Positions 5,465 through 64,000 of a DNA stretch of 64,000 bases are shown here, in pieces. The first letter of the stretch is position 1, and each line of letters starts with the position of its first letter. The position numbers and the translations under genes were made by a program. A model generated the notes under the pieces. That model was not told where the DNA came from. It searched no databases and saw nothing but the letters and a program-made list of their open reading frames with translations. This DNA is from an uncultured Ilumatobacter sp. (lineage in GTDB: Bacteria > Actinomycetota > Acidimicrobiia > Acidimicrobiales > Ilumatobacteraceae). The stretch covers positions 1 to 64,000 of the forward strand of contig CAJJBX010000017.1 of the NCBI GenBank assembly GCA_905182555.1, written 5' to 3'.

Positions 5465-7224
5465 TCAGTCAGTCGGTGGCAGGACCTTCAGGCCCAATTC
5501 AGTCATTGCCTTCGGGTCACCAGGGATCGGGCTGTTGGTCATCGGGTCCGAACCGCTCTGCGTCTTCGGGAAGGCAATGACCTCGCGAATGTTCTCTTCG
5601 CCAGCAAGAATCGCGACGAGGCGGTCGAGGCCGAAAGCGAACCCGCCGTGCGGCGGCGCGCCGTACTCGAACGGGTTAAGGAAAAAGCCGAACTTCTTTT
5701 CGGCTTCTTCGTCAGAGATACCGAGCGCGGTGAACACCTTGCGCTGCAGTTCAGGCTCGTGGATTCTGATCGAACCGGAGCCGAGCTCCCAGCCGTTGAG
5801 CACGAGGTCGTACGCAATGGAACGCACTGACATCGGGTCGGTTTCGAACTTGTCGAGGTCGTCCGGGTGCGGCATCGTGAACGGGTGGTGACCGGACTTC
5901 GGCTGCCCCGTTTCTTTGTTGCGGCCCACGAACAGCGGAAATTCAATGACCCACACGTAGCGGTACGGGCCCTCGTGCACCGGTGGACGAGCAATCTCAT
6001 TACGGAGCATGCCCAGCACTTCGCAGGTCGTGTCCCACTGGTCGGCGATGATCAGGATGAGGTCACCTGTTTCGGCGCTCATGGCGGCCTTAACGGCTGG
6101 GGGTGCGGCCGGACTTGCCCTTGGCCTCGTCGCCTGCCGCGTCGCCCGCGGCCGAGGCCTCTCCACCCCCGTCGCCGTCGGCCGACTTGGCCTTGTCGGC
6201 GCCCGCGCCCGCCTTGGACTCGACCCACCTGCAGTGCGAGGAGATGCAGATGCAGTGCGCCGGCAAATGCCTTGAACTCGGTGTTGGCAAATACTGGCGT
6301 GAGTTCTTGGAGCTCCATCGCGAAGCGAAGGTCGGGCTTGTCGCTGCCGAAACGGTTCATTGCGTCGTGCCAGGTGATCCGCTCAATCGGTGCCGGGCGT
6401 TCGCCCGTGGCAGCTTCGGCGGCGGCGAGGACGGCTTCGGACACGGCATCGAGCACGTCGTCCTGATTGACAAAGCTCATCTCCATGTCCATTTGCATGA
6501 ACTCGTACTGACGGTCGGCGCGGAGGTCTTCGTCGCGCAGGCAGCGTGCCATCTGGTAATAACGATCGACGCCGGCCACCATCAGTAGCTGCTTGAAGAG
6601 CTGCGGGCTCTGGGGTAACGCGTAGAACGAGCCAGGCTCTTTGCGCGAAGGTACGAGGAACTCGCGTGCGCCCTCCGGCGTCGACGGGACGAGCATCGGC
6701 GTCTCGACCTCGACGAATTGCTGAAGGTCCATGGCGTTGCGGACCGCAGCGTTGATCTTCGAGCGAAGGCGCAGGTTTTTTTGCATGCGCTCCCGACGAA
6801 GGTCGAGGTAGCGGTGCTTCAGGCGAATGTTCTCGTCGACGTCGTCAGCGCGAGCGTCGATCGGGAACGGAGGTGGCGTGGCCGTACGCAGGATCTCGAC
6901 TTCGCAGTCACCGATTTCGACCTTGCCGGTTGGCAGGTTGTCATTGACCGTTCCCTCAGGGCGCACACGGACGGTGCCCGTGATCTTGAGGACGTATTCG
7001 CTGCGGACGTCGACATCGTCGTTGATGACGCACTGGACGATGCCCGAGTGGTCGCGCAGATCAACAAATGCGAGGTGTTCGCCATGCTCACGTCGACGAC
7101 CAACCCAGCCACACACACTGACGGTGCTACCAATATCGGCTTCGCGGAGCTCTCCGCAAAGGTGGGTACGCATCGATGTTGCTTGCCTCGAGCTGGCCTG
7201 AGTCGAAAGAGTTGGTTCAGTCAT
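5465..7224 (-). CDS. aspS: Aspartyl-tRNA synthetase, internally disrupted
   Basis: AspRS charges tRNA-Asp (or tRNA-Asp/Asn). The N-terminal OB domain begins MRTHLCGELR. Motif 2 reads RCLRDEDLRADRQYEF and motif 3 is in GFAFGLDRLVAILAG. Between PVFANTEFKAFAG (about 6260) and ETGDLILIIADQWD (about 6085) the family carries about 75 residues of the GAD insertion domain. Here that stretch is absent and replaced by about 155 bp of very G+C-rich, unrelated DNA that also changes frame. The chosen ATG at 7224 overlaps the hisS stop (ATGACTGA), giving translational coupling. AspRS is essential, so the lesion is probably an assembly fault. Confidence 0.9.
6098..6252. other. Unrelated very G+C-rich segment replacing part of aspS
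   Basis: Where the GAD domain of AspRS should be encoded, the sequence switches to DNA much richer in G+C than its surroundings. On the minus strand one frame stays open through it and then stops: CICISSHCRWVESK, followed by an Ala/Gly/Asp/Lys-rich tail ending SGRTPSR. That looks like the end of an unrelated low-complexity protein. Boundaries are approximate, placed where AspRS similarity stops and resumes. Confidence 0.7.
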
Positions 7225-8488
7225 GAGTTCCGGTTTTCTGAGAGAGATTTCCTGAAAGATGTTCAATGAGTTCGGATCGGGGGATCGTCTGCTGGTCACC
7301 GCCGCGCATCGGCTTGACGACTACGGCGTTGTTGGCGACTTCGTCTTCGCCGATAATCAGCGCCACGGCGGCGTTGCTGCGGTTGGCCAGCTTCATCTGC
7401 GCCTTCATGCTGCGGTTGTCATAGCCGCGATCTACCGCAAAACCTGCCTGGCGCAGTTCTGCAGTGAGCTTGACCGCTTCGATCCCACCGACGACATCGA
7501 CGACGAATGCGTCAAGATCGCGCGGCTCTGCGGCAAACACTCCCTCGTCGTCGCATGCCAACAATGTCCGGTCGACGCCGAGTGCGAAACCGATACCCGA
7601 CGTGGCGGGGCCACCGAGGGCTTCGACGAGTCCGTCGTAGCGCCCGCCGCCGCCGAGGGCGTTCTGCGCGGAGTCGAGTGTGCCGCCCTGGAACTCGAAG
7701 ATGGTGCGGCGGTAGTAGTCAAGCCCGCGCACCAGTTTCGGTTCCAATGTGAACGGGATGTCGAGGGCTCGCAGGCCCGCCTGCACTGCGTCGAAGTGGG
7801 CTGCTGCTTCATCACTGTAGAAGTCGGATATCTGAGGTGCCGACTCGATGAACGGTGCGTCGGGTTCACGCTTGGAGTCAAGGACGCGCAGCGGGTTCTT
7901 CCCCAACGTGGTGCGGCTCTGCTCGGTCAACGAATCGCCCGCCGCCGCGAAGTGCGTCCGCAGTGCTTCGACGTAACGGGACCGATCATCGGGCTCACCA
8001 AGGCTGTTGACAATCAGACTGACCTGCTGCAGACCGAGCTGTTGGTAGAACTCCCAGGCGAGCGCAATGACTTCGACGTCGAGCATCGGGTCATCGACAC
8101 CCAGCACTTCAATGCCGACCTGGTCGAACTGCCGATAGCGGCCTCGCTGTGGCCGCTCGTAGCGGAAGTTCGGCCCCGAGTAAAAGACCTTCCACGGGGT
8201 AACGGGCCGGTGCTGGGCAAACGAGCGACACACGCTCGCCGTCTGTTCTGGCCGCAACGCCACGCGACGATCGCCTTTGTCGACAAAGTCGTACATCTCT
8301 TTGGTGACAACATCGGTCGCGTCACCAATCCGGGTGAAGACGCCAAGGTCTTCGAGCAAAGGCGGGATCAGCTGCTGATATCCGGCAGCTTCCACAACAT
8401 CTGCGAAGACCTGAGTGAAGGCACGCCAACGACTGCTCTCGGGCGGAAGAATGTCCCGCATACCGGGGCTGGTCTGGAACGATGACAC
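7217..8488 (-). CDS. hisS: Histidyl-tRNA synthetase
   Basis: HisRS is a class II synthetase of 423 residues, normal for the family. It starts at a GTG (MSSFQTSPGMRDILP). Class II motif 1 is near the N-terminus. Motif 2 is in FYSGPNFRYERPQRGRYRQF. The histidine-specific loops are LVRGLDYYRRTIFEF and ALGGGGRYDGL, and motif 3 is SGIGFALGVDR. The C-terminal anticodon-binding domain is intact (AVALIIGEDEVANNAV). Its stop overlaps the aspS start, the hisS-aspS pair common in bacteria. A hairpin separates it from relA upstream. Confidence 0.96.
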   Translation of the reverse strand: MSSFQTSPGMRDILPPESSRWRAFTQVFADVVEAAGYQQLIPPLLEDLGVFTRIGDATDVVTKEMYDFVDKGDRRVALRPEQTASVCRSFAQHRPVTPWKVFYSGPNFRYERPQRGRYRQFDQVGIEVLGVDDPMLDVEVIALAWEFYQQLGLQQVSLIVNSLGEPDDRSRYVEALRTHFAAAGDSLTEQSRTTLGKNPLRVLDSKREPDAPFIESAPQISDFYSDEAAAHFDAVQAGLRALDIPFTLEPKLVRGLDYYRRTIFEFQGGTLDSAQNALGGGGRYDGLVEALGGPATSGIGFALGVDRTLLACDDEGVFAAEPRDLDAFVVDVVGGIEAVKLTAELRQAGFAVDRGYDNRSMKAQMKLANRSNAAVALIIGEDEVANNAVVVKPMRGGDQQTIPRSELIEHLSGNLSQKTGTHD

Positions 8489-8534
8489 AGCATCCCAGGC
8501 TATCGGTGCGCTCGGGCCAGGTGCGGAAGCGTTT

Positions 8535-8573
8535 CAGAGTTACGGATGGGGTCAGGCCCCTTTCGCAACTCTG
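8535..8573 (-). terminator. Hairpin between relA and hisS
   Basis: On the minus strand CAGAGTT at one end pairs with AACTCTG at the other, 7 bp. Inside it GGGG pairs with CCCC around the loop CCTGA. It follows the relA stop by about 20 bp and precedes the hisS start by about 46 bp. There is no T run, so it may be a weak or Rho-assisted terminator, a processing site, or a REP-like repeat. Its apical GGCCTGACC also occurs at the tip of the hairpin at 36391-36421. Confidence 0.5.
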
Positions 8574-8593
8574 TCGTACTCACCCCATGCGTC

Positions 8594-10840: not shown

Positions 10841-10842
10841 GA

Positions 10843-11370
10843 TCAGTAGTGCAGCAATGCCTTCGCGGGTCGATCGCCGAGTTTCACTCGGCCACCAAGT
10901 TCGTCGATCTCGATGAGGAACGCCAGGCCGGCAACAACGCCACCGAGCGCCTCAACGAGCTTCGCCGTGGCTGCCGCCGTGCCACCTGTGGCAAGTACGT
11001 CGTCGACAATCAGAATCCGCTCGCCAGGATGGATGGCGTCACGGTGGATCTCAAGCTTGTCGCTGCCGTATTCGAGGCTGTACTCCTCGCGGACAACGGC
11101 CCACGGAAGTTTGCCCGCCTTGCGCACCGGCACGAAGCCTGCACCGGCTCGATACGCAACCGCTGCACCAAATATGAACCCACGTGCTTCGACCCCGACC
11201 ACATGGTCGATCGCAACGCCCTCGAACTGTTCGACCATGCCATCGACAGCCTGAGCCAAGGCAGCAGCGTTGCCGAGGAGCGGCGTGATGTCTCGAAACG
11301 TCACCCCGTCGATCGGGTAGTCAGCGATATCGCGTACATAACTCCGAAGGGAGCTCTGATCGGCTGTCAT
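10843..11370 (-). CDS. apt: Adenine phosphoribosyltransferase
   Basis: Salvages adenine to AMP with PRPP in the cytoplasm. The 175 residues contain the type I PRTase PRPP loop ILIVDDVLATGGTAAAT, the N-terminal FRDITPLLGN and the GFVPVRKAGKLP segment. Length is normal. It lies between secF and relA, as in mycobacteria, and ends 2 bp before the relA start, so the two are very likely cotranscribed. The ATG at 11370 is the chosen start (MTADQSSLRSYVRDIADYP). Confidence 0.96.
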   Translation of the reverse strand: MTADQSSLRSYVRDIADYPIDGVTFRDITPLLGNAAALAQAVDGMVEQFEGVAIDHVVGVEARGFIFGAAVAYRAGAGFVPVRKAGKLPWAVVREEYSLEYGSDKLEIHRDAIHPGERILIVDDVLATGGTAAATAKLVEALGGVVAGLAFLIEIDELGGRVKLGDRPAKALLHY

Positions 11371-14666: not shown

Positions 14667-15764
14667 TCAGCCCCAGACGTCGAGTACGTCGCTGCGGAGC
14701 GCATCGAACGTGCTGTCTGCGATGGCAACTCGCATGCGCTGCATCAGGTCAATCGTCCACGCCACGTTGTGAATCGTTAACAGCCGCGACGCTGTTGGTT
14801 CACCGACCTGCAGAAGGTGGCGGATGTAGCCGCGGCTATGTCGAGCGCAGATTTCACAGGGGCAAGTCGTGTCGAGCGGCTCGTCAAGTTCGGCGTTACG
14901 GGCCGCTTTCGCTTGGAAGCGACCCGTCGAGGTGAGGGCTGTGCCGTGGCGGCCGAGGCGCGTCTGCATCACGCAGTCAAACTGATCGACGCCGAGCGCT
15001 ACAGCTTCGACCAGCGAGGCCGGGTCGCCGACCCCCATCAAATAGCGAGGCTGATCAGCCGGAAGGTGCTCAATAGCGGCAGCCAGTGCTGGCAACATCT
15101 GCTCGCGAGACTCGCCAACTGACAGGCCGCCAATTCCGTAGCCGTCGAAGCCGATCTCGACAGTTCGCTGCGCACTCTCGGCACGCAGGGTCTCACTGAT
15201 GCCACCCTGCACGATGCCAAAGAGCGACTGGTCGGTACGAGAATGAGCAGCCTTGGCCCGACGGGCCCAATCGTTCGTGCGCTCGAGGGCCAAGCGGATC
15301 ACTTCTGGCGGGCTCGGCAATGGTGGGCAGACGTCGAGCACCATCTGGATGTCAGCACCGAGTTGCTGCTGGACATCGACAGCGATCTCGGGCGTGAACC
15401 GATGAGTTGAGCCGTCGTACGTGCTCTTGAAGGTGACTCCTTCGTCGTCGACCTTCGGGTCGAGCGAAAACACCTGGAACCCACCCGAGTCGGTGAGCGT
15501 GAGGCCATCCCAGCCGGAAAACTTGCCCAGGCCACCAAACTTGGCAATGAGTTCTGCACCCGGCCGCAGCATCAGGTGGTAGGTGTTGCCGAGCACGATT
15601 TCGGCGCCGAGGCGTTCGTAGTCTGCAGCGCTGAGGTGCTTGATCGCTCCTCTGGTGCCGACCGGCATGAACAGCGGCGTTTGATACGTGCCGCTGGCCG
15701 TGCTTGCGGTGCCCACGCGGGCAGCACCGTGTGTGGCTTCGACGTCAAGTTGCACCCGGTACAT
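14667..15764 (-). CDS. tgt: tRNA-guanine transglycosylase
   Basis: Exchanges guanine 34 of tRNAs with GUN anticodons for a queuosine precursor. The 365-residue product has DSGGFQVFSL with the active-site Asp, the FGIVQGG segment, MGVGDP, the second Asp in GVDQFDCVMQTRLGRHG, and the zinc site CPCEIC with a His in LTIHN. The RLGRHG variant replaces the RNARNG of proteobacterial enzymes and may be lineage-typical. It follows queA by 12 bp, so the last two steps of tRNA queuosine assembly are encoded together. No preQ1 synthesis genes are in the window. Confidence 0.95.
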   Translation of the reverse strand: MYRVQLDVEATHGAARVGTASTASGTYQTPLFMPVGTRGAIKHLSAADYERLGAEIVLGNTYHLMLRPGAELIAKFGGLGKFSGWDGLTLTDSGGFQVFSLDPKVDDEGVTFKSTYDGSTHRFTPEIAVDVQQQLGADIQMVLDVCPPLPSPPEVIRLALERTNDWARRAKAAHSRTDQSLFGIVQGGISETLRAESAQRTVEIGFDGYGIGGLSVGESREQMLPALAAAIEHLPADQPRYLMGVGDPASLVEAVALGVDQFDCVMQTRLGRHGTALTSTGRFQAKAARNAELDEPLDTTCPCEICARHSRGYIRHLLQVGEPTASRLLTIHNVAWTIDLMQRMRVAIADSTFDALRSDVLDVWG

Positions 15765-15776: not shown

Positions 15777-16781
15777 CTACCGACTGGAGCGTTCGAGCAG
15801 CATGGCGTCACCAAAGCTCAGAAATCGGTACTCACGCTGGATTGCTTCTGCATACAGCTCGCGCCAGCCCGGGCCGGCGAACGCATCGATCATCATGAGC
15901 AGCGTGGTCTTTGGAAGGTGGAAGTTCGTCAGCAGCACGTCGACGACCTGCCAGTCGAAGCCTTCGTGGATGAAGATGTTCGTTCGGCCGGAGAGCTCGC
16001 CAAGCTTGGCGGCTGACTCAAGCGCCCGCACCGCAGTAGTCCCCACGGCAACAACACGGCTACCTGCCGCGTGCGTGTCGATGCACTGCTGCATCGTTTC
16101 CGGCGGCACGCGATAGCGCTCGGTGTGCATTGGATGGTCGAGCGGATTGTCTGTGCTGATCGGCTGAAACGTGTCGAGCCCAACAACGAGTTCAACGGTC
16201 GCACGATTCACGCCCCGGGCATCGAGCCGGTCGAAGAGTTCGGGGGTGAAGTGGAGGCCGGCGGTGGGGGCGGCGATGGCACCATCCTCTTTTGCGTAGA
16301 CCGTTTGGTAGCGTTCGCGGTCGGCTTTCTCGGGCTCGCGCTCCATGTAGTGTGGGAGGGCGAGTTGGCCGACTTTGTCGAGATCGGGTGGGTTGTCCCA
16401 GCGGATGAGCCGCTCACCTTTGTCATTCGTCTCGATGACGGTGCCGGTGCTGGAGCCGACTTTGATGGTGCGGCCCGGCTTCAGCTTCTTACCCGGTCGA
16501 ACGAGCGCTTCCCATTCGGTGCGCGCCCCGTTGGTTGCCTCGAGCAGCAAGACTTCAGCCGCTCCCCCGGTGGCCCGACGAAGCTTGAGGCGAGCAGGGA
16601 TCACACGCGTTTCGTTGACGACCAGTAGATCGCCGGGCAGCAACAGGTCGGCCAGGTCAGAGACATGCAGATGTCGGACCGGATTGCCCGCAACCAACAA
16701 CCGGGCCGAATCACGTGGTTCGATTGGAGTCTGCGCTATCCGCTCGCCAGGCAACACGTAGTCAAAATCAGACAGCTGCAC
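15777..16781 (-). CDS. queA: S-adenosylmethionine:tRNA ribosyltransferase-isomerase
   Basis: Adds the cyclopentene ring precursor (epoxyqueuosine) to preQ1-modified tRNA using S-adenosylmethionine. The 334 residues begin at a GTG (MQLSDFDYVLPGERIAQ) and include PRDSARLLV, LLVVNETRVIPARL, GAIAAPTAGLHFTPEL and ALESAAKLGEL, ending with FLSFGDAMLLER. This is the full normal length for the family. It lies between ruvB and tgt, a conserved order (ruvCAB-queA-tgt-yajC-secDF). Confidence 0.96.
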   Translation of the reverse strand: MQLSDFDYVLPGERIAQTPIEPRDSARLLVAGNPVRHLHVSDLADLLLPGDLLVVNETRVIPARLKLRRATGGAAEVLLLEATNGARTEWEALVRPGKKLKPGRTIKVGSSTGTVIETNDKGERLIRWDNPPDLDKVGQLALPHYMEREPEKADRERYQTVYAKEDGAIAAPTAGLHFTPELFDRLDARGVNRATVELVVGLDTFQPISTDNPLDHPMHTERYRVPPETMQQCIDTHAAGSRVVAVGTTAVRALESAAKLGELSGRTNIFIHEGFDWQVVDVLLTNFHLPKTTLLMMIDAFAGPGWRELYAEAIQREYRFLSFGDAMLLERSSR

Positions 16782-16878: not shown

Positions 16879-17917
16879 TCAATCGAAAAGAGAGCCGTTG
16901 GTAACTTTCAGGGGTGCGGTGATGCCGATGTGTTCGTAGGCCGCAGCGAGCGCCACTCGGCCACGAGGAGTGCGCGCAATCATCCCCTGGGTGATCAAGA
17001 ACGGCTCGTACACATCTTCAACTGTCTCCGGCTGCTCGCCGATACTGATTGCCAGGGTGGACAGGCCGACAGGCCCGCCGGTGAACTGGCCACAGAGCGC
17101 TGTGAGGAGCGCCCTATCGACTTTGTCGAGGCCGCGGTTGTCGACGCCGAAAAGCTACCCTCCAGCCTCGGCCACGTCGGCGGATAGTTGGTAGATGATC
17201 AGATCGAGTACAGATCGGGTTAACACGGCGCAGGAGCCGATTGGCGATACGCGGTGTGCCGCGGGACCGGCGAGCGATCTCGAACGCTCCCTTCGAATCG
17301 ATTTCGATCTCGAAGATGCCAGCCGCACGTTCGACAATTGCCTGTAGTTCGACGTGGTCGTAGTAGTCGAGCCGGGCAACAAGGCCAAACCGGTCGCGCA
17401 ACGGGCCAGTGATCATGCCGGTCCGAGTGGTGGCCCCCACGAGCGTGAACGGCGGCATTGTGAGCCGAATACTCGATGCTGCCGGGCCCTTCCCGACAAC
17501 GATGTCGAGCTGAAAGTCTTCCATCGCCGGATAGAGGATCTCCTCGACGGCACGGTTGAGTCGATGGATCTCGTCGATGAATAGCACGTCACCGTCTTCG
17601 AGTTTCGTCAAGATCGCTGCGAGATCACCAGCTCGTTCGAGCGCAGGGCCCGACGTGACGTGGATCCGGGTGCCCATCTCGGTGGCCACGATGCTGGCCA
17701 GCGTGGTCTTGCCAAGGCCGGGCGGGCCAGCGAACAACAGATGATCAACCGCTTGCTCGCGAAGACGAGCAGCCTCCATGACAATCTTCAGGTGTTCTTT
17801 GAGTTCGCTCTGCCCAACGAACTCCTCGAGCGCTCGCGGCCGAATACCAACTTCAAGTTCTTCCTCGTCGACATTTTCCGAGTGCCCGACGCCGGGGTCG
17901 AGAAATTCGTCACGCAT
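16879..17917 (-). CDS. ruvB: Holliday junction branch migration ATPase RuvB, internally disrupted
   Basis: RuvB forms hexameric rings that drive branch migration with RuvA. The N-terminal part is intact: GPPGLGKTT (Walker A), DEIHRLN (Walker B), [18 protein letters not shown] (sensor region) and [14 protein letters not shown]. The C-terminal winged helix resumes in another frame as [39 protein letters not shown] and GSLFD before the stop. Between them about 25 residues of conserved sequence are missing and about 70 bp of unrelated DNA is present with stops in the expected frame. It lies after ruvA by 19 bp. The break is likely an assembly fault. Confidence 0.9.
17152..17224. other. Unrelated short segment inside ruvB
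   Basis: Between LLRRV and FGVDNRGL of RuvB the expected RDFA-type residues cannot be found in any frame. One minus-strand frame reads [22 protein letters not shown]-stop. The stretch near 17185-17225 is A+T-richer than its neighbours. The ADVAEAG part may still be native RuvB, so the foreign piece could be as short as about 45 bp. Boundaries are uncertain. Confidence 0.5.
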
Positions 17918-22078: not shown

Positions 22079-22985
22079 CTATTCGATCGTGACGTCAGCC
22101 GGGTCGCCCGGCGAACCCACCTCGACAAGTTCAATCCAGGTCTGCCCAGGCGTCAGCTTGATTGGATTTCCGTCGTCGTCGGTCAGGACGAAGTTGTAGA
22201 CCGCCAGCTCTTTCTGCCAACGCCCAGTGATGACCTCACCGTTACTGAACACCGATGCCTGACCTTCACCCAAGACGACTGCCTCGGGAGCGTTCGAGTC
22301 GATAGAACTCTGGCGATAGTCGACGGCGAGCACAATGACGTTCTGTGCACCGATCTGACCGTAGGTCTTGTCGACGTGCTTCGTGCCCTCTTGCGAACGC
22401 TCGTAGCGCCCTTCGTCAGCGTTCCAGTCCCACCCAATGTCGACGTTGCCGATGGTGAACGACACCTTCTTGGCCACGTCGCCCGCAAAAACCGTGCCAT
22501 CGTCGAGGAACCCGAACTGGAGGCTTGGCGCGCCAGGATTATCTGCCGGCGCCAACGCGTAGAGCGACGCGGTGTCGGAGTACAGGTTGTGCGGGGCGCT
22601 TCCCGGGCCGCGGTAGTAGCTGCCGGAGTTTGAAGGTGCGCCGACGTCGACAAGGAATGAGGCCCTGATCAGACGCGTGACGCCTGGGTTGCCGCCACTC
22701 CAACCGAAGAGCGGTTCGTTCAGCGAACTGAGGAGGTTGACGTCCTGTTCGCGACCCGATCGGATCGGGCCGACCGGATCGGCGTCCTGGCTGTGGAACA
22801 CCACTGCGAAGCGAGTGAGGCCGCCTTCAACTTTTTCTTCGAAGACAACATCGGCAACAGCGATGCCCGAGTGGTTGCGGCGGGCGGCTGGGGCATTATC
22901 AATCTTGACGGCCAGCGCGGGGCGATTGGTGACGCCGCCCTCACTCCCGGCGAACATGCCTGTCGCCGAAAACATTGGCGGTTTG
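22079..22985 (-). CDS. DUF3048 family protein, 5' end lost
   Basis: From TNRPALAVKIDNAPAARRNH through PVGPIRSGREQDVNLLSSL, LFGWSGGNPGV and the C-terminal domain ending LTPGQTWIELVEV, the protein matches DUF3048 (YerB-like), usually a secreted lipoprotein or membrane-anchored protein of unknown function in Gram-positive bacteria. The N-terminal signal peptide or lipobox expected before FAGSEGG is missing. At about 22985 the sequence turns into an unrelated glutathione S-transferase fragment on the other strand. No start can be assigned; an internal ATG at 22975 is not convincing. It lies about 100 bp upstream of pdxS. Confidence 0.8.
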
Positions 22986-22989
22986 AACA

Positions 22990-23287
22990 GTCCAGCGCTG
23001 ATTCCTGAAAATTACGCACTTCGAGTGGAGATGTTTGGTTTATGCGCCGTGGTTTTGGCAGAAGACGGTTTGCTCTGGAATATGCGAATCTTGTCTGATG
23101 GCCCTTTGGGCCGAAAATACGGATACAGCGATGAAGCCAGCGCCGCAGCGCCAGCCAAAATTGCTGAGGTAATCACGTTGATCGACACCCGCCTTAAGCA
23201 GCAAGCCGAACGCGGTTCAAAATACCTTGTAGGCGATTCACTGTCGGCAGCCGACATTTATTGGGCGACGATGGGTATGAGCGTTAT
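22990..23287 (+). pseudogene. Fragment of a glutathione S-transferase-like gene, foreign to its surroundings
   Basis: The plus strand encodes about 98 residues with no start or stop of its own: IPENYALRVEMFGLCAVVLA, LLWNMRILSDGPLGRKYGYS, then KIAEVITLIDTRLKQQ and KYLVGDSLSAADIYWATMG. The last part is the helix-6 region of the C-terminal domain of glutathione S-transferases (GDxLSxADIYW). Base usage is clearly richer in A+T than the flanks. It lies exactly where the 5' end of the DUF3048 gene and the 3' end of htpX should be. It looks proteobacterial rather than actinobacterial (inference). Most likely a chimeric join in the assembly. Confidence 0.8.
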
Positions 23288-23289
23288 GG

Positions 23290-24046
23290 CGACGCTGGTG
23301 TCTTCCTTCAGCTTTTCCAGCGCCGAGATCAGACCCGGCGGATACCGAGTCAGCTGACAAGCCGTGACATCGGCAAGCGTTTCGCGGCTCCTCGAAACCG
23401 CTGCCTGCATGGCTTTGGCAATGATCGGCGACAGGACTAGCAGGGCAAAACCGGCGTAGGCCAGTGGGTTATTGCCATTCGACCGGTCACCGGAACGCGA
23501 CACACGCCCACCGTTCCACCACATCAGGCGGATCGCACCGTCGGCAAGAAGGGCGACTGCGCCAACCATCGTGACTGCGAGCGTCGAAACGAGAATGTCG
23601 TAGTTCTTGATGTGGCCGAGTTCGTGTGCAATGACTCCCTCGAGCTCGACTCGATTGAGCATTTCAAGAAGGCCGCTCGTTACTGCGATCGCAGCGTGTT
23701 CTGGGTTACGGCCAGTGGCAAAGGCATTCGGTGCCGGATCGTCGATGACATACACGCCCGGCTTCGGAAGGCCTGCAGCGATGCAGAGACCCTCGACGAT
23801 GTTGTGGAGTCTCTGGTACTGGATTTCTGAGGCCGGCTCGGCTCGGCTGATCTTCAGCGCGATCTTGTCGGCTCGCCAGTACGAGTAGAAGGCAACGCTG
23901 CCGCTGAAGACCAGTGCAACGAGCGTGAAGGCTATGCCATTGCCGACCAGCGCTCCAATGGCAGCGCCGACAAGCACGATGAAGAGCATGAAGCACGCAA
24001 CGAGCGCGACACTGCGGCGTTTATTCGATCGGATCAGTTCAAACAT
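23290..24046 (-). CDS. htpX: M48 family zinc metalloprotease HtpX, 3' end lost
   Basis: Membrane zinc protease for quality control of membrane proteins. From the ATG at 24046 (MFELIRSNKRRSVAL) it has two N-terminal helices, the zinc motif in GVIAHELGHIKNYD, two more helices, and the third ligand region SRETLADVTACQLTRYP. Similarity stops at LEKLKEDTSVA; about 40 C-terminal residues (usually ending in a THPPxxxRI motif) are missing and the sequence enters the foreign fragment. It follows lemA by 25 bp, a common pair. Confidence 0.88.
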
Positions 24047-24626: not shown

Positions 24627-24751
24627 GAGCGCAGTGTACGACCGATCGATGCGCGGTCAGTGGGATTCCCCACCGGTCGCACTCCTGGAGCAACCGCTAC
24701 TGAACGGCCGGACGGCCGGGACAGCCGAACAGTCGAACGGTCAGCCTGCGA

Positions 24752-27679: not shown

Positions 27680-28192
27680 TTACTCGGTCTCGTCGTTCTC
27701 CTCGATGAGGTGCTCCAGGATTCGCCCGTCGACTGCATCGACCAGAACCAGGCCGCGCTGGACGGGGGGTTCTTCGGCCGAGTAGCAGAGCACGCGCCAT
27801 GTCGGGCGGCTCCGAAAGCCACGCCAGACCTGCTGTGCCGAGGCATGTCCGACGGCAAAACCGACTGCACCCTGGGCGGCAACAAGCGCTTGCTTTTCGT
27901 CCACAGTCATCCGCCAGCCACTCGTGATCGAGAAGATTCCAACAGCGCCAAGCACCACAGCTCCGACGAGCCAGCCAGTGTTCACCACGGCTACGTCGGT
28001 GGCAACGAAGTAGACGAGCGCAGCAATTGCTGCAAGGCCCAGGTATATCGCTCCCGGCCAGCGCCGACGGCTGTTGTCGGGAAAGAGATAGGCGCCGACG
28101 AACCCAGCTGGGTTCAAGTCGTCAGGCAGCACGTCGATCTGGTCGTCGGTCATCACCGCAGAGTCTACGAGCGCTACATCGACGTCGGCCAC
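27680..28192 (-). CDS. Uncharacterised two-helix membrane protein in the PIM operon
   Basis: I do not recognise a family. The start may be the GTG at 28192 or the ATG at 28153 (MTDDQIDVLPDDLNPAGF). After a short acidic N-terminus come two adjacent hydrophobic helices (WPGAIYLGLAAIAALVYFVA and WLVGAVVLGAVGIFSI). A soluble C-terminal part of about 80 residues follows, with VLCYSAEEPPVQRGLVLVDA and an acidic end. It lies between the HIT gene and pgsA, 12 bp before pgsA. A role in phosphatidylinositol or PIM synthesis is a guess from position alone. Confidence 0.75.
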   Translation of the reverse strand: MADVDVALVDSAVMTDDQIDVLPDDLNPAGFVGAYLFPDNSRRRWPGAIYLGLAAIAALVYFVATDVAVVNTGWLVGAVVLGAVGIFSITSGWRMTVDEKQALVAAQGAVGFAVGHASAQQVWRGFRSRPTWRVLCYSAEEPPVQRGLVLVDAVDGRILEHLIEENDETE

Positions 28193-28242
28193 CTGAGATT
28201 CCCGGGACCCGGTATCTCAGGAACCGCTATCTCAGTAAATGT

Positions 28243-28764
28243 TCAGGCGGTCTGCGCGTTCCAGGCTGTACGGATGCGACTGGCAGTAACAACGAGAGCC
28301 TCAGGCAGCGTCTGGGCGTTGGCAATCGTTGACATGAAGTTCGAGTCGCCAGTCCACCGCGGAACGACGTGCATGTGGAGATGCGTGGGGATTGAGCCGC
28401 CAGCCGGACGGCCCAGATTGAGCCCGATGTTCATGCCGTGGGGTTTGTACTCCGCACGCACCACCGCAGCCGCCTGCGTCGTGACGGCCCAGAGCTCAGC
28501 GTTCTCCTCGGCCGTCAGCAGCTCGATTTCCGCCACCTCGCGGTACGGCAGCACGAGCACGTGACCGGACGTGTACGGATGAATATTGACGATCGAGAAG
28601 ACGTGCTCGGCACGGTGCACGATGTGCGTCTCCTCGTCTGGCAAGCCCGACTCGAGTAACTGAGTGAACACGCTCGAATCGTTTGCTTCCAGGCCCTTTG
28701 CCTGAGTGGCTCCCGCCCCGACCACGTAGCTCGAACGCCACCCTGACCAGATCTGTTCGAGCAT
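28243..28764 (-). CDS. HIT-domain protein, probable AP4A phosphorylase
   Basis: Histidine-triad nucleotide hydrolase or phosphorylase. The 173 residues contain NIHPYTSGHVLVLPYREVAE, NIGLNLGRPAGGSIPTHLH and the triad HLHMHVVPRW. The mycobacterial protein at the same place in the thrS-HIT-pgsA-patA-pimA cluster is a diadenosine tetraphosphate phosphorylase, so the same activity is likely. Its ATG overlaps the thrS stop by one base (TGATG), implying coupling. Link to threonyl-tRNA synthetase is attractive because synthetases make AP4A, but this is inference. Confidence 0.9.
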   Translation of the reverse strand: MLEQIWSGWRSSYVVGAGATQAKGLEANDSSVFTQLLESGLPDEETHIVHRAEHVFSIVNIHPYTSGHVLVLPYREVAEIELLTAEENAELWAVTTQAAAVVRAEYKPHGMNIGLNLGRPAGGSIPTHLHMHVVPRWTGDSNFMSTIANAQTLPEALVVTASRIRTAWNAQTA

Positions 28765-32842: not shown

Positions 32843-33074
32843 CGCTCAACGCTCGCAGTGCCCTGTTTCATTCCTATCGATATCACAGGCTCAGGGTGCC
32901 ACATCGCTGCCGCGCCCCCGCAGGTCTTGGGCGCGAGTCACAGCTCCCACCACCGATTCAGCCCCGTTTTATGTACTCAAAAAACACGGCCGAGTTTTGC
33001 GTGAGCGATTCCAGCGACCGACGCTCTCACCGCTCACACAAAAACAGGGCGCTCCAGCGACTACGTTTCGGCGG
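32843..33074. other. Divergent intergenic region between mshC and fabI
   Basis: These 232 bp separate the mshC start (minus) from the fabI start (plus) and must hold both promoters. There is an A+T-rich patch around 32968-32995 (gttttatgtactcaaaaaac) suitable for a -10 region. I cannot assign hexamers with confidence. A plus-strand frame runs through it into fabI, but its codons do not look like FabI. Confidence 0.5.
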
Positions 33075-33891: not shown

Positions 33892-34191
33892 TCATCGACG
33901 ACGAGTTGCTCCGCGTCCGGCAGAGGCCTGCAGCACGAGCAACAACAGCACCGCGCCGATCGCTGCGACGCCGATACTCCGTAGGGAAAACTCCTTGACT
34001 CGCTCACTGTCGATCGCGGACATCAGCCAGCCGCCGATGAGCGCGTCGCGCACGCCGACGACCATCGTGTAGATGCAGCCGCTCCGGTCGTCCTTGACAA
34101 TCCATCGGGCGATGCCACCAGCAATCAATCCAACGATGATCCAGCCAACGATGCTTGTGGAGGTAACGCTAGCGAGGGGCCCAACACCCAC
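33892..34191 (-). CDS. GlsB/YeaQ/YmgE-like small membrane protein
   Basis: Of 99 residues, the Transgly_assoc-type pattern is visible: [40 protein letters not shown] and a last helix ([20 protein letters not shown]) with a basic tail. Three membrane helices are predicted. Members of this family are often induced by stress but have no known activity. Arg-Asp in [12 protein letters not shown] replaces the usual Leu-Gly of the family, which is odd inside a helix and could be another base error. It converges with fabI and diverges from the next gene. Confidence 0.78.
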
Positions 34192-34263
34192 TTGGTTTCG
34201 GCCTTGTCCGGTGGCGCTTCAGACACCGTCATCGCCGCTTTCTGCGGCGTTACCCTCCCGACG

Positions 34264-41479: not shown

Positions 41480-41700
41480 CTGGCTTTTCTGAGCGAATTT
41501 CTGAGCGAGTTATCAACGTCAGATACTTACAACGTTGGCATTCTGAACGTAGCAGTGAATCCCTTCGTTTTTCCAACGGTTGCATACGACCGGCTCTCGG
41601 GTCCTGGCTCCGTCGATCGATCGGGCTGCGACGGCTCGTTCCTCGCCGACGGTCCCTCCTCGACCCACGGAGCCACCCGTTCCCTTGCTGGCTGCCGCCC

Positions 41701-41742
41701 GGCCTGACGCTCGCGCCTCTGGCGAGGCGGCAGCGTCAGGCC
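41701..41742 (-). terminator. Hairpin terminator after bpa
   Basis: GGCCTGACGCT (41701-41711) pairs perfectly with AGCGTCAGGCC (41732-41742), with further G+C pairing inside. It starts one base after the TAG that ends the GTYL reading of bpa. No T tract follows. Its position supports that stop as the true end of bpa. Confidence 0.7.
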
Positions 41743-41743
41743 G

Positions 41744-42320
41744 CTACAGGTACGTTCCTGGGCGGTCGCCGTCGGCCGGCGGCGTCGGCTCCGGGATGGC
41801 CTGGCGCGTGCTGTGCTCCGCCTTGGACGACTTCGCCATTCGGAAGCTGACGCATCTGAGCAAGCTGCTGTTGAGCAACGGCCTGCTGGGCCATGAGGCT
41901 GGCCTGAATTCCGTGGAAAAGGCCTTCGAGCCAGCCGACGAGTTGCGCCTTGGCAACGCGTAGTTCGGATTCGCTCGGAACTTCGTCATGGTCGAACGGC
42001 AGCGCAAGCAACCGCAGCTCTTCCTGCAAATCCTCGGACATCGCCCCAGACAGCTCCACAATCGAACGTTCATACACCTCGGCGAGCCGCTCGCGAGAGG
42101 CCTCGTCGAGCGAAGTCATCCGGACCTCTTCGAGCATTTGCTTGATCATCGAGCCGATGCGCATCACCTTGGCTGGCTGCGTGACCGCCTCACGAAGCTC
42201 AGTTGGTTCGCCAGCATCAGCGCTCTTTGGCGATGCCTCGTCGCTCGTTGGTCCGACGCCTCGACGCACCGGCTCGCTCTCAGCAGAGGTTGCGTCGGGA
42301 GGCGGTGGCGTGTCGGACAT
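41744..42320 (-). CDS. bpa: Bacterial proteasome activator Bpa, frameshifted near the C-terminus
   Basis: Bpa (PafE) forms rings that open the 20S proteasome without ATP. The core is clear: QPAKVMRIGSMIKQMLEEVR, LDEASRERLAEVYERSI, LRLLALPFDHDEVPSESELR and VGWLEGLFHGIQASLMAQQA. In this frame the end (VVQGGAQHAPGHPGADAAGR) runs past 41744 without the proteasome-docking tail. One frame over, the DNA reads PEPTPPADGDRPGTYL-stop, matching the C-terminal GQYL-type motif of Bpa. So a one-base shift lies between about 41785 and 41845. The N-terminus is acidic and disordered. The 20S proteasome genes are not in the window. Confidence 0.87.
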
Positions 42321-45723: not shown

Positions 45724-46903
45724 TTAACGGAAGCCGGCGCCGCTGACCTTCTCGACCGCAAGGACGGTCGTTTCCGGAATCGCTTCGAGCCGCTCACGCG
45801 GGATCGGCTTGCCCGACACCACTGAGTAGCCGTACGTGCCAACTTCAATCCGGGCCAACGCCTCGTCGATGTCGCCAATGGACTGGCGAGCCTGGCCCGA
45901 CAGCAGCCGATCAAGATCGCGCTGGACGACCATCGTGTCTCCTTCGCCACCCTCGTCGTCGAACTGAACATCGCCCATTTCGCCGTCTTCGATCAGCGAG
46001 ATCGCTTCCTCTTCGAGGCGGGTTGCGCGAAGCAGTTCACCGGCACGTCGTGCGAGCAGTTCGTCCTTTTGCGCTTTGAGGAACTTGACATCGAAGTCCT
46101 TCGTGTACGCAATGCCGTCTTTGCTCGTGCCGCGTGGCTTTGGCACCTCGACGACTTCTGGGACATCATTCGAAAGCAGCGACGGGAACGGTGTCTTCTT
46201 CTCTTTGATCTTCGGTGCGAGCTTCGGCGGCACAGTCTGTATTGGCCGCGGGGTCGCTGGGTCGACAGCTTTCTTTGCCGCCGACTTCTTCGATGCGACC
46301 TTCTTCGATGCGACCTTCTTCGATGCGACCTTCTTCGATGCGGTTTTTTGCACTGCTGCCTTCTTCGATGCGGTCGTATTCACTGCTGCCTTCTTCACTG
46401 CTGCCTCCCTCACTGCTGCCTTTTTGGCAACCGCCTTCTTCGCAGCCGTCTTCTTCACTGCTGCCTTTTTGGCAACCGCCTTCTTCGCAGCCGTCTTCTT
46501 CACTGCTGCCTTTTTGGCAACCGTCTTCTTCGCAACCGTCTTCTTGGCAGCCGTCTTCTTGCAGCCGGTCTTCTTCACTGCTGCCTTTTTGGCAACCGCC
46601 TTCTTCGCAGCCGTCTTTTTCACCACGGGCTTCTTCGCTGCCGTCTTCTTGGCAACAGGCCTTTTTGGCAACCGCCTTCTTCGCAGCCGTCTTTTTCACC
46701 ACGGGCTTCTTCGCTGCCGTCTTGTTCGCAGCGGTCTTCTTCGCAACCGTCTTCTTGGCAGCCGTCTTTGAGACGGTCGGCTTCCGCGCTGCCTTTTTCG
46801 CTACTGCCTGCTTGATGACAGGCCTCTTCGCGACCGCCTTCTTCGCTGCCGTCTTCTTGGCAACAGACTTCTTTGCGGATTTCGACGATTTCGGTGCGGC
46901 CAT
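45724..46903 (-). CDS. TraR/DksA-like protein with histone-H1-like tail, frameshifted
   Basis: From the ATG at 46903 the N-terminal 230 residues are repeats of AAKK/VAKK/PVVKK, like histone H1 tails of some actinobacteria, and should bind nucleic acid. The C-terminal 120 residues match the DksA/TraR domain: a coiled coil (LKAQKDELLARRAGELLRAT) then IDEALARIEVGTYGYSVVSG and GKPIPRERLEAIPE. The four cysteines of the DksA zinc finger are absent (YSVVS where CxxC is expected). One base is extra or missing near 46657-46667, where the Lys-rich frame changes to a Cys/Glu/Gly-rich one and another frame resumes the Lys repeats. It lies between ileS and lspA. Confidence 0.83.
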
Positions 46904-57027: not shown

Positions 57028-58455
57028 CAAGTACCTCAGACGGGAAGGACGCAATGTCGCCGCACCCCATCGAAATCACTACATCGCCGCTCCTGGCCTC
57101 TCGTGCGACGTAGCCGACCAGATCGCTCCGGTTCGGCAGCCAGACGACGCGTTTGCCCGGGTTCGCCTCGGTGACGGCGTTGACAATCAGCTTGCCAGTG
57201 ATGCCCGGAATCGGTGTTGTCCCAGATGCGTAAATGTCGGTAAGGACCACGAGGTCGGCCTGGCCGAATGCGTCGGCGTAGTCACGCCAGATCTCAGAGA
57301 TGCGGTTGAATCGATTGGGTTGGAACACCGCAATGATGCGATCCCACCCATCGCCGCTGTCGCGTGCCCCGGTCAGTACCGAATCAATCTCGGTCGGCAG
57401 ATGGGCATAGTCATCAACGAAGGTCGCTCCACCGTCGACACCACGAACATCGAATCGCCGAGCGACACCACCGAACTTTGCCAAGGCCTCGGCAATGTCC
57501 GCGAAGCCCACGCCAATTTCGAGTGCCATCGCCGTGGCCGCAAGCGCGTTCCTGACGTTGTACACGCCGCGCATTGGTAGAGCGATCTCGCCGAGGCGGA
57601 CCATGTCGCCGCCTTGGCGCCGCTCGACACCAAACGTGAACGATCCATTGGTCGCCAGCACATCGACGGCACGCACGTCGGCATCTTTGCTGAGGCCGAA
57701 CGTGACACCATCGTGCACGCCCGCGAGTCGGCGGGTGACTGGATCGTCAGCACTGAGGATCTTGGGACCCGCGATCTGTCTGAGGTACGTGTCGAAGCTG
57801 TCGACGATGGCCCCGAAGGTGCCGTAGTGGTCGAGGTGGTCGACTTCGATGTTGGTGATAATTGAACCATGCAAAGGCAGTTCGAGATGGGTGCCGTCGC
57901 TCTCGTCGGCTTCGACGACCAGCCATTCACCGCCCGACCAATGTGCACCGGTACCGACGTCTGTGACGTCACCGCCGACGATGAAGCTCGGTCGGAGTCG
58001 CGCCTGGGCCAAGATCAGCATCAGCATTGACGTCGTTGTGGTCTTGCCGTGCGTACCTGCCACAGCCAACGACTTTGCGCGAGCACAAATCGACGCAAGC
58101 ATCCCGGCACGCCGGAGCACCGTGACGCCAGTTTTTCTCGCCTCATCGTGCCTCAGGTGCTTGGCCAGCCCTGTGAGCAGCGCGCGCACGGCGGCGTCGA
58201 ACGCCTCGCGCCGCACTGCACCGCCGCACGCGCCGCGCGAACTCGTTCCAGCACCGGGTGTTCGCGAAGATCGCTACCTGAAACATCGTGACCCATTTCG
58301 GCCAGCGCAATGCCGATTGCGCTCATCCCGGGGCCACCGATTCCGACGACGTGCAGCCGATGCGGGATCGACAGATCCAGCGGCGCAGCCGGTGCCCGCA
58401 TCGCCGGAGCGGCCGGCGATGGAGCCTGGTCGAACAGATTGTCGGTCGGGTTCAC
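57011..58455 (-). CDS. murC: UDP-N-acetylmuramate--L-alanine ligase, internally disrupted
   Basis: Adds the first residue of the stem peptide. The N-terminal part from the GTG at 58455 reads HRLHVVGIGGPGMSAIGIAL and SGSDLREHPVLERVRA. The rest reads EARKTGVTVLRRAGMLASIC, VAGTHGKTTTTSML (ATP loop), EADESDGTHLEL and FQPNRFNRISEIWRDYADAF to the stop. Between HPVLERVRA and EARKTG about 40 conserved residues (the S-x-AI-P region) are missing. About 90 bp of very G+C-rich DNA stands there and changes the frame. MurC is essential, so this is probably an assembly fault. The start overlaps the murG stop. Confidence 0.9.
58150..58240. other. Unrelated very G+C-rich segment inside murC
   Basis: This stretch, rich in gcg/cgc runs, replaces the expected MurC segment between GSDLREHPVLERVRA and the EARKTGVT strand. 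One minus-strand frame is open through it (VRREAFDAAVRALLTGLAKH) but does not resemble MurC. The ends are placed where family similarity stops and resumes, plus or minus about 10 bp. Confidence 0.65.
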
Positions 58456-59570
58456 GATGCAGCAGATGTTAGGGCCACGCGCTCGATCAACGCTGCCAAT
58501 GCGCCAGATCGATGAACGTCACCACGGGCCAAAGCCGCATCACTCAATTGTTTCCGTGCACCACCATCGCTGCGAAGGCGCTCGATCTCGTCGCCGAGAC
58601 GGCCGAGATTGGATTCCGGCACAAGCACGGCGGCCTCAACGTCAGTCAGCCAACCAACGTTGTCCGTCTGGTGGTCGTCAGCTGCGTTTGACCACGGGAC
58701 GAGAATCGCTGGCGTGCCAGTGACAGCCACCTCGTGCACGGTGCTCGCCCCTCCGCGGCCGATCAACAGATCAGCTGCTTCATACACCGATGGCATGTCA
58801 TCCTCGTACCCAATCAACCGATGCTGGACACCGGTTGCATGAGCATCGCCAGATCCGACCTGATCGATTGTGTCGATAAAGCGTTCTCCGGCGACCTGCC
58901 TGACAGACAATTCGCTGTCGTCCGCGCGGTCGGCAAGGTACTTCGCGACAGCCCCATTGAGGACGCCCGATCCCTGCGAACCGCCCATGACCGCGACCAA
59001 AAAACGGTTGGGTCCCACCCCGAGTCGCTCACGTGCGGCGGCACGTCCCGCCGCGCGATCGACATCCAAGATCGCTTGCCGGACCGGTGCGCCGGTCACT
59101 TCGGCGCGCGGTAGTGAGGAATTCTCGAATGCCACCGCGCACGCCACGGCATGCTTCGCCGACAGTTGACTGGCACGCCCCGGCGTGCGGTCGTAGGACA
59201 CCACAACGACAGGAATCTTGAGCCGTCGAGCAGCGAAAACAGACGGCATGCTGGCGTAGCCCCCGACGGAGACGACCACGGCGGGTCGGTCCTGGCGAAA
59301 CTTTTTGATCGCCTGCCGGGTTGCCGTGATCATCTTCGGGATGAACGCAATGTTTCGACGAGTCAGGCTGCGCTGGAAGCCGACGACATCGTAGAACACT
59401 GCAGGAAACGGCGTACTCGGCAGCAGCCGAACCTCGATCCCTCTTTTGCATCCGGCGTAAAGGATTTCATCAGCTCTGCGCCCACGATCCACGAGCGCTT
59501 CAGCCACAGCGAGAGCCGGCAGCACGTGGCCGGCAGTCCCTCCGCCGGTGACGACGGCAAACGGTCCCAT
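58452..59570 (-). CDS. murG: UDP-N-acetylglucosamine--undecaprenyl-pyrophosphoryl-MurNAc-pentapeptide transferase
   Basis: Peripheral GT28 enzyme that makes lipid II from lipid I. From the ATG at 59570 (MGPFAVVTGGGTAGHVLPAL) it has 372 residues. It shows PAVVVSVGGYASMPSVFAAR, LVAVMGGSQGSGVLNGAVAK, and DLLIGRGGASTVHEVAVTGT with PAILVPWSNAADDHQTDNV for UDP-GlcNAc binding. The Gln and Asn of the sugar site are in DHQTDN. A start at 59600 would overlap ftsW; the one chosen is two bases after the ftsW stop. Confidence 0.95.
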   Translation of the reverse strand: MGPFAVVTGGGTAGHVLPALAVAEALVDRGRRADEILYAGCKRGIEVRLLPSTPFPAVFYDVVGFQRSLTRRNIAFIPKMITATRQAIKKFRQDRPAVVVSVGGYASMPSVFAARRLKIPVVVVSYDRTPGRASQLSAKHAVACAVAFENSSLPRAEVTGAPVRQAILDVDRAAGRAAARERLGVGPNRFLVAVMGGSQGSGVLNGAVAKYLADRADDSELSVRQVAGERFIDTIDQVGSGDAHATGVQHRLIGYEDDMPSVYEAADLLIGRGGASTVHEVAVTGTPAILVPWSNAADDHQTDNVGWLTDVEAAVLVPESNLGRLGDEIERLRSDGGARKQLSDAALARGDVHRSGALAALIERVALTSAAS

Positions 59571-59571
59571 G

Positions 59572-62338: not shown

Positions 62339-62355
62339 AAGCCGACCGCCACGTT

Positions 62356-63369
62356 CTAGCGCAGCTTCAGACTCGCCAACCCAGCCATGGCGAAGATGAG
62401 AGAAAGAATCCAGAAACGGATGACGACCTTGTTCTCGTGCCAGCCTTTGAGCTCAAAGTGATGGTGGATCGGTGACATTCTGAAAATACGCTTCTTGCGC
62501 AATTTGAAAGAACCGACTTGCAGGATCACCGAACCCGCCTCCATCACGAAAATACCACCGATCAAGATGATCAAGAGATGCGTGTTCGTCGTCAGGGCAA
62601 GAAACGCAAGTGCAGAACCAATGGCGAGGGCACCGACGTCGCCCATGAAGATCTTGGCCGGGGCGGCATTCCACCACAGGAACCCGAGGCAGCCGCCGGC
62701 AAAGGCCGCTGCGAAGACACCCATATCAAGTGGGTTGACGGCGAGGTCGTAGACGTCCGGGTTACGAAACAGCCAGTAGCCGATTAGGGCGAATGCGCCG
62801 AAGCCCATCAGTGCTGAGCCTGCAGCAAGCCCGTCGAGACCATCGGTAACATTGACGGCATTCGTCGTGGCCCAGATAATAATTCCTGCCCACAGCACCC
62901 AGACGGCGGTGGGAACTTCGATGCCGATTTCCGGTCGTGTCACCGAAATCGTCTCGGAGATACCCGTGCCAACGACAAGGACCCAGGCCATCACAAAGCT
63001 CATCAACATCGTGATGTAGTTCTTTTGCTTCCAGAAAATGCCCCGGTTATGGCCTTTCCGGACCTTGATGTAGTCGTCAAGAAAACCCATCGTCGCGAGG
63101 AGCAGCACACCTGCCCACACGATCATCGTCTGGTTCGAAAAGGCGAGGTCGCGGACGTGGGCTGCGACCCACCCAATGAAAGCTGCACCAACGATGGCAA
63201 TGCCACCCATTGTCGGGGTGCCCTGCTTGTGTTGGTGCTCAGGGCCGCGGTCTTCCTTGCCGAGAATCGGCTGACCCTGGCCGCGGGTCCGGAAGAAGAC
63301 GATGAGGTAACGGGTGCCGAAAAGCGACACCAACGTCGAGACCGCCGTGGCAATCATGAGAGCGATCAT
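62356..63369 (-). CDS. mraY: Phospho-N-acetylmuramoyl-pentapeptide transferase
   Basis: Integral membrane enzyme that makes lipid I on undecaprenyl phosphate. It is 337 residues with ten predicted helices. Aspartate motifs are GFLDDYIKVRKGHN and NAVNVTDGLDGLAAGSALM, with FMGDVGALAIG and the HHHFELKGWHENKVVIRFW loop near the C-terminus. The ATG overlaps the murE stop (ATGA). Length and all catalytic residues are normal. Confidence 0.97.
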   Translation of the reverse strand: MIALMIATAVSTLVSLFGTRYLIVFFRTRGQGQPILGKEDRGPEHQHKQGTPTMGGIAIVGAAFIGWVAAHVRDLAFSNQTMIVWAGVLLLATMGFLDDYIKVRKGHNRGIFWKQKNYITMLMSFVMAWVLVVGTGISETISVTRPEIGIEVPTAVWVLWAGIIIWATTNAVNVTDGLDGLAAGSALMGFGAFALIGYWLFRNPDVYDLAVNPLDMGVFAAAFAGGCLGFLWWNAAPAKIFMGDVGALAIGSALAFLALTTNTHLLIILIGGIFVMEAGSVILQVGSFKLRKKRIFRMSPIHHHFELKGWHENKVVIRFWILSLIFAMAGLASLKLR

Positions 63370-64000
63370 CGAGAACTACTTTCCATGAACGACTGAGCGA
63401 CTGCTCTGTCGTCGAACTCGACCTCCGCCCGCCGCCGCTGGCACTGCACTGCACTGTCCACGAGCGTCACCTCCGCCTCAAGCGCCACGTCCAAGGCCTC
63501 GCCCACCTCGCTGTGCCGAGCGTCAGCTGCGGCGGACGCCTCACGCGCGGCGTCGACACGCCGGCCACGACATCATCGATGATCTGCATCGGCACCTCAA
63601 ACCTTGGGTTGTCTGAGGTCACGATCACCCGATCTGCGCCTGCGGCAGCAGCAGCGCCCATCTCGGCACGCTTTGCCTCATCACGGTCACCGCCGCAGCC
63701 GAACACGACGATGACGGATGCTGATTCGTCGACCACGGCGCGGGCCGCAGCGATCACTTCAGTCAGCCCATCCGGCGTGTGGGCGTAGTCGACAATGACG
63801 GAGAACTCGCCGTCGATGCCTGTGGGCCATGCGACTGTCTCGAATCGCCCCGGGATGGCATCGAGCCGCGCCAGTCCACTGATGACGTCATCTATTGGAA
63901 CACCGAGTTCGGTTGCCGTGACAACGGCGGCAAGCGAGTTGGAGACGTTGAACGCTCCGCCCATTGCGACATGAATCCGATGTCCGTTCCACTCGAAGCT
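63366..64000 (-). CDS. murE: UDP-N-acetylmuramoyl-L-alanyl-D-glutamate--2,6-diaminopimelate ligase, partial and disrupted
   Basis: Only the C-terminal region is in the window. FNVSNSLAAVVTATELG, IPGRFETV, FSVIVDYAHTPDGLTEVIAA, VVFGCGGDRDEAKRAEMG and VIVTSDNPRFEVPMQIIDDV are typical MurE. The substrate motif reads SDNPRFE rather than DNPR-x-E-D. The next 60 or so residues (usually including AGKGHE) are missing and replaced by about 135 bp of G+C-rich unrelated DNA. A tail VEFDDRAVAQSFMESSSR then returns to MurE and ends in a TGA that overlaps the mraY ATG. No murF lies between murE and mraY. Confidence 0.88.
63423..63556. other. Unrelated G+C-rich segment inside murE
   Basis: Between MQIIDDVVAGV and VEFDDRAVAQSF the sequence is richer in G+C than its neighbours and has no MurE similarity. 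A minus-strand frame is open through it (AAREASAADARHSEVGEA, then LDVALEAEVTLVDSAVQ), an Ala/Glu-rich helical sequence. That frame differs from the MurE frame before it, so the join on the right is out of frame. Boundaries are approximate. Confidence 0.65.

Follow-up and report, generated by a model that had tools for sequence, protein, structure and literature searches.

The first 64,000 bases of contig C17 from the genome of an uncultured Ilumatobacter species (this whole stretch is called the window in the following) carry, among many others, the genes aspS, ruvB, htpX, murC and murE, and in each of them, or at the junction to the neighboring gene in the case of htpX, a piece of native sequence is replaced by unrelated DNA (Table 1). 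A sequence-only reading of the window had claimed replacements at these five sites; the comparison with the nearest relative and the matches to NCBIfam profiles concur that they are there, close to where that reading had put them. At all five sites the similarity to the nearest relative, about 89-95% identity in the flanks, ends sharply, vanishes and then returns; in between, the native segment has given way to unrelated DNA of about the same length.

The genome (G000) comprises 2,558,616 bases in 26 contigs and is 72.74% complete. It was compared with nine relatives of the genus (G001 to G009), of which G001 is a single contig of 4,830,181 bases and G007 is the nearest one, with about 89-95% identity over the aligned stretches of the window; G007 served as reference for the lost native segments. 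A DNA-level comparison with the fetched G007 contigs was possible for about 43.0 kb of the window; the remainder was compared by protein only and with more distant relatives. From outside the window 20 further stretches of G000 were fetched (designated by L-numbers; L155 is from C6, L164 from C15 and L166 from C17, L166 7235-7513 being C17 71235-71513), 12 of them without a fetched G007 counterpart. In total, 105.6 kb were compared with G007, using 85 of its approximately 450 contigs.

The profiles show what the genes have lost. Between the two open reading frames (ORFs) into which aspS is split, positions ~320-380 of the 590 of the AspS profile are absent; the matches to the RuvB and HtpX profiles end at 228 of 330 and at 255 of 298, respectively, and the match to the MurC profile begins at 77 of 449. 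The ORF beside htpX, which the sequence-only reading had called DUF3048, has no match among the NCBIfam profiles. In ruvB the bases 17180-17221 (42 for 41 native ones) are clearly non-native and the bases 17155-17164 are scrambled, introducing an in-frame stop codon; the 15 bases between them (17165-17179) are identical to the native sequence and could be either flank or shared word. The G+C contents agree with the description of the inserts as three very G+C-rich pieces, one A+T-richer piece and one glutathione S-transferase (GST) gene fragment. Insert and native lengths are similar at every one of the ten measured sites, the insert falling short of the native segment at nine of them.

Table 1. 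Replaced segments, affected genes and shared words in the window and elsewhere in the assembly (positions are those of the window unless a contig is named; lengths are given as insert for native; arms are the insert/native lengths beside a word)
Feature	Position	Strand	G+C	Length (bases)	Remarks
aspS gene	5465-7299	minus			split into ORF 6079-7299 (profile 3-319 of 590) and ORF 5465-6166 (profile 381-586)
aspS insert	6102-6259		0.75	158 for 177	limits from DNA comparison with G007
aspS word	6184-6199			16	arms: left 82/87, right 60/74
ruvB replaced stretch	17155-17221		0.48-0.57	67 for 66	length if scrambled 10 bases and 15-base match are included
htpX junction insert	22965-23295	plus	0.52	331 for 372	GST-like gene piece
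htpX word	23136-23157			22	arms: left 171/177, right 138/173
murC insert	58148-58219		0.75	72 for 85	limits from DNA comparison with G007
murE insert	63423-63552		0.75	130 for 140	limits from DNA comparison with G007
murE word	63484-63503			20	arms: left 61/70, right 49/50
queA foreign piece	16276-16478	minus		203 for 224	gene 15777-16781; homologous, in frame
mraY foreign 3' end	62356-62520	minus		~165 for 174	gene 62356-63369; homologous, in frame; limits by eye
acyl-CoA dehydrogenase piece	C17 71235-71513		0.45	279 for 296	homologous; named by eye
non-homologous insert	C17 74218-74498 (L166 10218-10498)		0.76	281 for 336	
non-homologous insert	C5 ~15123-15235			113 for 129	at gene end
C5 word				22	arms: 35/43 and 56/64
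C15 gene, middle	L164 18327-18443				homologous 39-residue middle, foreign-looking, in another frame than both flanks
C6 start	L155 1 to ~993		~29.5%		SAR11-like by eye, broken over three frames, abuts native DNA

Together with two sites outside the window (C5 and C17 74218-74498), the five sites make up seven with a non-homologous insert. At four of the seven, namely aspS, htpX, murE and C5, a single exact word of 16-22 bases is common to the insert and the piece lost at that site, and the word stands in register. Directly beside the word the identity is at chance level on both sides (6-11 of 30), and with the lost pieces of the other sites the inserts share at the longest 5-10 bases. When wider limits were set, six of the seven sites gave an exact match of 15-22 bases between insert and lost piece; among up to 400 random G007 segments per site, matches of the observed lengths did not occur. 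The shared words at the four sites are a finding that goes beyond the sequence-only reading; they suggest that the native sequence guided the placement of the inserts there.

The insert at htpX is a continuous piece of a GST-like gene, open over 110 codons and with weak similarity to GST C-terminal families (best E 1.4e-4). Relatives of it are encoded at 43 loci of public genomes, of which 38 are titled Gammaproteobacteria, SAR86 or Luminiphilus and the other five Rhodobiaceae (2), PS1 clade, SAR324 and Proteobacteria. Of 12 loci that were compared, the best three have a DNA identity of 80.3, 84.8 and 86.7%, and for the three loci closest by DNA the protein identity is 85, 87 and 88%. Judged from these matches, the insert is a piece of the GST-like gene of a marine gammaproteobacterium. 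In the 22-base htpX word the 12 compared loci agree at 14-19 positions; since the frame passes through it unbroken, we take the word to be part of the donor gene. A copy from elsewhere in G000 was considered and rejected, the next best match having an E of 0.195. Also rejected were a single common donor, since the G+C content of the inserts spans 0.45-0.76 and one insert is gammaproteobacterial, and a mobile element, intron or intein, since the inserts stand in place of native bases with hardly any gain in length and have no sequence in common. The htpX insert is the one among the non-homologous inserts whose foreign origin was traced.

Whether the relatives have the lost parts was determined with the proteins of G001 as queries against the fetched loci of the other relatives, G001 being extra to the counts and loci truncated by contig ends counting neither for nor against intactness. 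The lost part of aspS is intact in the six relatives that cover it (G002, G003, G005, G006, G007 and G008), that of ruvB in seven (G002 to G008), that of murC in eight (G002 to G009) and that of murE in seven (G002, G003, G004, G006, G007, G008 and G009). HtpX is intact to its end in G003, G004, G006 and G009, is covered up to residues 370 (G005) and 374 (G007) of 379, and in G008 its C-terminal end alone is covered. The sequence-only reading had noted that aspS, murC and murE, all three essential in other bacteria, are broken, which raised the question of intact second copies; a search of G000 with DNA probes of the lost aspS, murE, murC and ruvB pieces (the htpX piece was not probed) revealed none, although a strongly diverged copy would escape such a DNA search and the assembly searched is the 72.74% complete one. 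The probes found the shared words and chance-level matches only (best E 0.007), one of which was the murE word itself.

Two further genes of the window, queA and mraY, appear to be whole but, from comparison with the relatives, are mosaics. In queA the DNA match to G007 ends at 16275 and restarts at 16479, and the window protein is identical to that of G007 in 93 of 95 residues before the segment, in 25 of 68 within and in 157 of 163 after it. With each of the seven relatives that cover the segment (G001-G004 and G006-G008) the identity within it is 21-25 of 68, the frame remaining open; the possibility that G007 is the odd one was rejected, since these seven relatives make the window copy the odd one. 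In mraY the last ~55 codons diverge from G007, the remainder is nearly identical, and the gene terminates at the stop codon of the foreign piece itself. When the mraY piece was searched for in 24 genomes (the records of 24 of the 43 GST loci), no close donor was found; partial matches at 71-85% were present in 10 of the 24. Both genes have what is expected of a natural mosaic, a homologous in-frame segment between native flanks; this does not discriminate between a real mosaic and misplaced reads. When the proteins of 61 genes of the window were scanned against G001, G003, G004 and G007, aspS, queA, murC and mraY stood out, but not ruvB, htpX or murE; two weak places (34078-34150 and 58419-58509) were left uncounted.

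Comparable errors are present in other parts of the assembly, at two sites on C17 beyond the window, on C5, on C15 and at the start of C6, so that the number of events given by the sequence-only reading, five, is too low both for the window, which has queA and mraY in addition, and for the genome. The acyl-CoA dehydrogenase piece on C17 is readable only across three frames. In the C5 gene the G007 protein matches only up to residue 170 of 209, and in the C15 gene the middle is 66.7% identical as compared with 90.8% and 95.5% in the flanks. For the initial 20 kb of each of C9 and C3, next to nothing in G007 matched, which made these stretches unusable for the search. L166 4080-4136, also on C17, is a small possible further replacement of ~40-55 bases.

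We propose that the replacements are, very probably, errors made in reconstructing a metagenome-assembled genome, and that they are in all likelihood not a real feature of the organism. At places to which the organism itself contributed no reads or not enough of them, reads or small contigs from other community members would have been put onto the native draft, anchored at several sites by a single exact word of 16-22 bases and at others by a conserved protein domain, and the consensus would then have been rewritten with foreign sequence over ~40 to 331 bases. A mapping, polishing or correction step appears to be responsible, with low native coverage as the presumable trigger. The observations that speak for an artefact are the non-native pieces of similar length, the in-register words at four of the seven non-homologous sites, the homologous foreign pieces in native register at four sites (queA, mraY, the acyl-CoA dehydrogenase gene and the C15 gene), the intact relatives and the change of frame in two of the pieces. 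Also in its favor are the single continuous GST-like piece at htpX, the ~1 kb of low-G+C DNA that opens C6, the failure of the DNA probes to find the lost aspS, murE, murC and ruvB pieces elsewhere in G000, and the low completeness of a genome in few contigs. Because of the in-register words and the homologous pieces in register, the native sequence would have guided the placement at those sites; the shorter inserts at nine of ten sites and the two frame-changing homologous pieces may fit an alignment-based rewrite. As expected of an artefact, the segments are foreign to the genome and absent from the relatives: the relatives with the part covered are intact, and the htpX insert has marine gammaproteobacterial relatives.

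The sequence-only reading had also favored an artefact with DNA of the community, and this part of it is borne out by the GST piece, the intact relatives and the failure to find second copies; the part that does not hold in the form given is the filling of scaffold gaps with wrong reads. In such blind filling, N gaps would have been closed with wrong reads recruited via their mates, the native sequence not being seen. The lengths of the inserts do track the native ones, as they would if gap sizes had been estimated, and the foreign nature of one insert is clear; murC, C17 74218-74498 and perhaps ruvB show no evident word of the lost piece, and blind filling may apply to them. However, an insert put in blindly should be independent of the lost sequence, which at four of the seven non-homologous sites it is not: the exact words at aspS, htpX, murE and C5 demand a placer that saw the native sequence, and so do the four sites at which a homologous foreign piece lies in register; we therefore regard blind filling as unlikely. 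Still less likely, to be considered a slight chance, is that the DNA was already chimeric before sequencing, foreign and native DNA having been joined at short matches by template switching during amplification. Template switching typically involves short exact matches, and the end of C6 is a chimera, but the process yields native sequence, word and foreign sequence in this order, whereas at four sites there is foreign sequence on both sides of the word and the native sequence resumes at approximately the matching distance.

A real process in the cell is the most improbable of the explanations; we hardly credit it. A cell taking up community DNA would have exchanged pieces of ~40-331 bases with those of distant donors, several of them guided by a single match of 16-22 bases at which the environmental DNA annealed and replaced the native strand, as in short-patch double illegitimate recombination but over longer distances. 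One short in-register match per patch, similar lengths and a distant donor are indeed the trace expected of such a process, and a short match of foreign and native DNA inside the patch, by which short-patch events are defined, is found at four of the seven non-homologous sites. Against it stand that a single haploid genome would have aspS, murC and murE all broken at once, the DNA probes having found no second copy of the lost pieces in the assembly, that the relatives with the parts covered do not show the replacements, and that the sites would be as dense as about one in every 6 kb of the window compared. If the patches were true copies of a donor, the GST piece with its open frame would conform, but two foreign pieces, those in the acyl-CoA dehydrogenase and the C15 gene, change frame.

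Several points weigh against our preferred explanation, the rewriting of a native draft with foreign reads. The word is missing or unclear at three of the seven non-homologous sites. The insert at C17 74218-74498 shares 9 bases only, a length reached by 248 of 400 random segments; with narrower limits murC shares 9 bases (23 of 300 random segments) and ruvB 6 bases (82 of 300). The 17-base match at murC (58220-58236) continues into 28 of 30 identity and would most simply be native flank, and the 15-base match in ruvB, only 10 bases (5 of 10 identical) away from the flank, is unclear as a word. In the first null test, in which random segments were allowed to overlap the lost piece, 1 of 300 gave a match as long as the htpX word. 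The sites are unevenly distributed, 9 in 60.0 kb of C17 as compared with 2 in 45.6 kb of seven other stretches; no donors were found for the very G+C-rich pieces and for mraY; and queA and mraY, taken alone, could be real mosaics. Finally, the lost native sequence is inferred only through a relative of ~90% identity, and the evidence consists of assembled sequences.

Other places that differ from G007 were left uncounted. In the window these are small insertions or repeats at 5278-5356, 24700-24732, 32956-32977 and 28188-28244, and a stretch that is shorter in G007 (33898-34221). Outside the window L166 7815-7960 is a tandem repeat, L159 18252-18470 a repeat plus an insertion and L154 11832-12167 a G007 contig end, and L154 10189-10338 lies around a sequence that recurs in G007. 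A scan of the G+C content over the window and the 20 further stretches gave many extreme places and was too unspecific to count.

Some observations concern the genome more generally. Sequences of ~30-45 bases that recur in many G007 contigs are present at L154 ~760-806 and 11115-11160, L166 5046-5077 and L162 16071-16104; they are probably dispersed palindromic repeats, those in L154 and L162 occurring on both strands. At 46201-46800 of the window, within the ORF 45724-46671 and past it, the AT skew is -0.55 to -0.60 and the GC skew goes down to -0.345, perhaps reflecting a low-complexity part of the protein. At 41480-41841, outside the fetched G007 contigs, the G+C content reaches 0.78 between aligned blocks, and the stretch has 362 bases as compared with ~231 in G001. 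The unmatched stretches L158 (C9:1-20000) and L152 (C3:1-20000) are from contigs of 188 and 217 kb, respectively, whereas stretches of other contigs match G007 at ~90%; the two stretches could be specific to the strain, could be lacking in G007 or could belong to misbinned contigs.

G000 is the only genome for its species in the comparison set, and an error in it has practical weight. With 26 contigs and 2.56 Mb it is yet only 72.74% complete, as compared with the 94% listed for G006 with 50 contigs and 3.0 Mb; the overwritten genes may account for part of this low completeness. The queA and mraY mosaics, composed of distant lineages, would mislead phylogenetic trees and claims of horizontal transfer. 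The combination of native flanks, a foreign middle of similar length and an in-register exact word is a fingerprint that can be searched for in public genomes for which a close relative is available.

In short-patch double and homology-facilitated illegitimate recombination, foreign DNA replaces or joins native DNA via short matches, in isolated events in living, selected cells. The replacements described here differ from both types in that several essential genes are broken together and in that the frame changes within two of the foreign pieces. Closer are the local assembly errors in metagenome-assembled genomes, consensus sequences without perfect read support, which lead to incomplete or incorrect protein-coding genes that spread into public databases (Genome Research 2020, PMC7111523). 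Our sites would be such unsupported consensus; unlike in the passages of that paper on which this comparison draws, where nothing of the kind is described, the foreign pieces here keep register via one short shared word. For the short-read polishing of hybrid metagenome assemblies, the ambiguous alignment of reads to conserved regions of different strains has been named as a possible source of error (PeerJ 2024, PMC11552494). The queA, mraY and acyl-CoA dehydrogenase pieces are alike, but between distant organisms, and whereas that account, in the passages drawn upon, concerns strains and ambiguous alignments, here, with the use of polishing only presumed, non-homologous reads would have been placed on a single short word.

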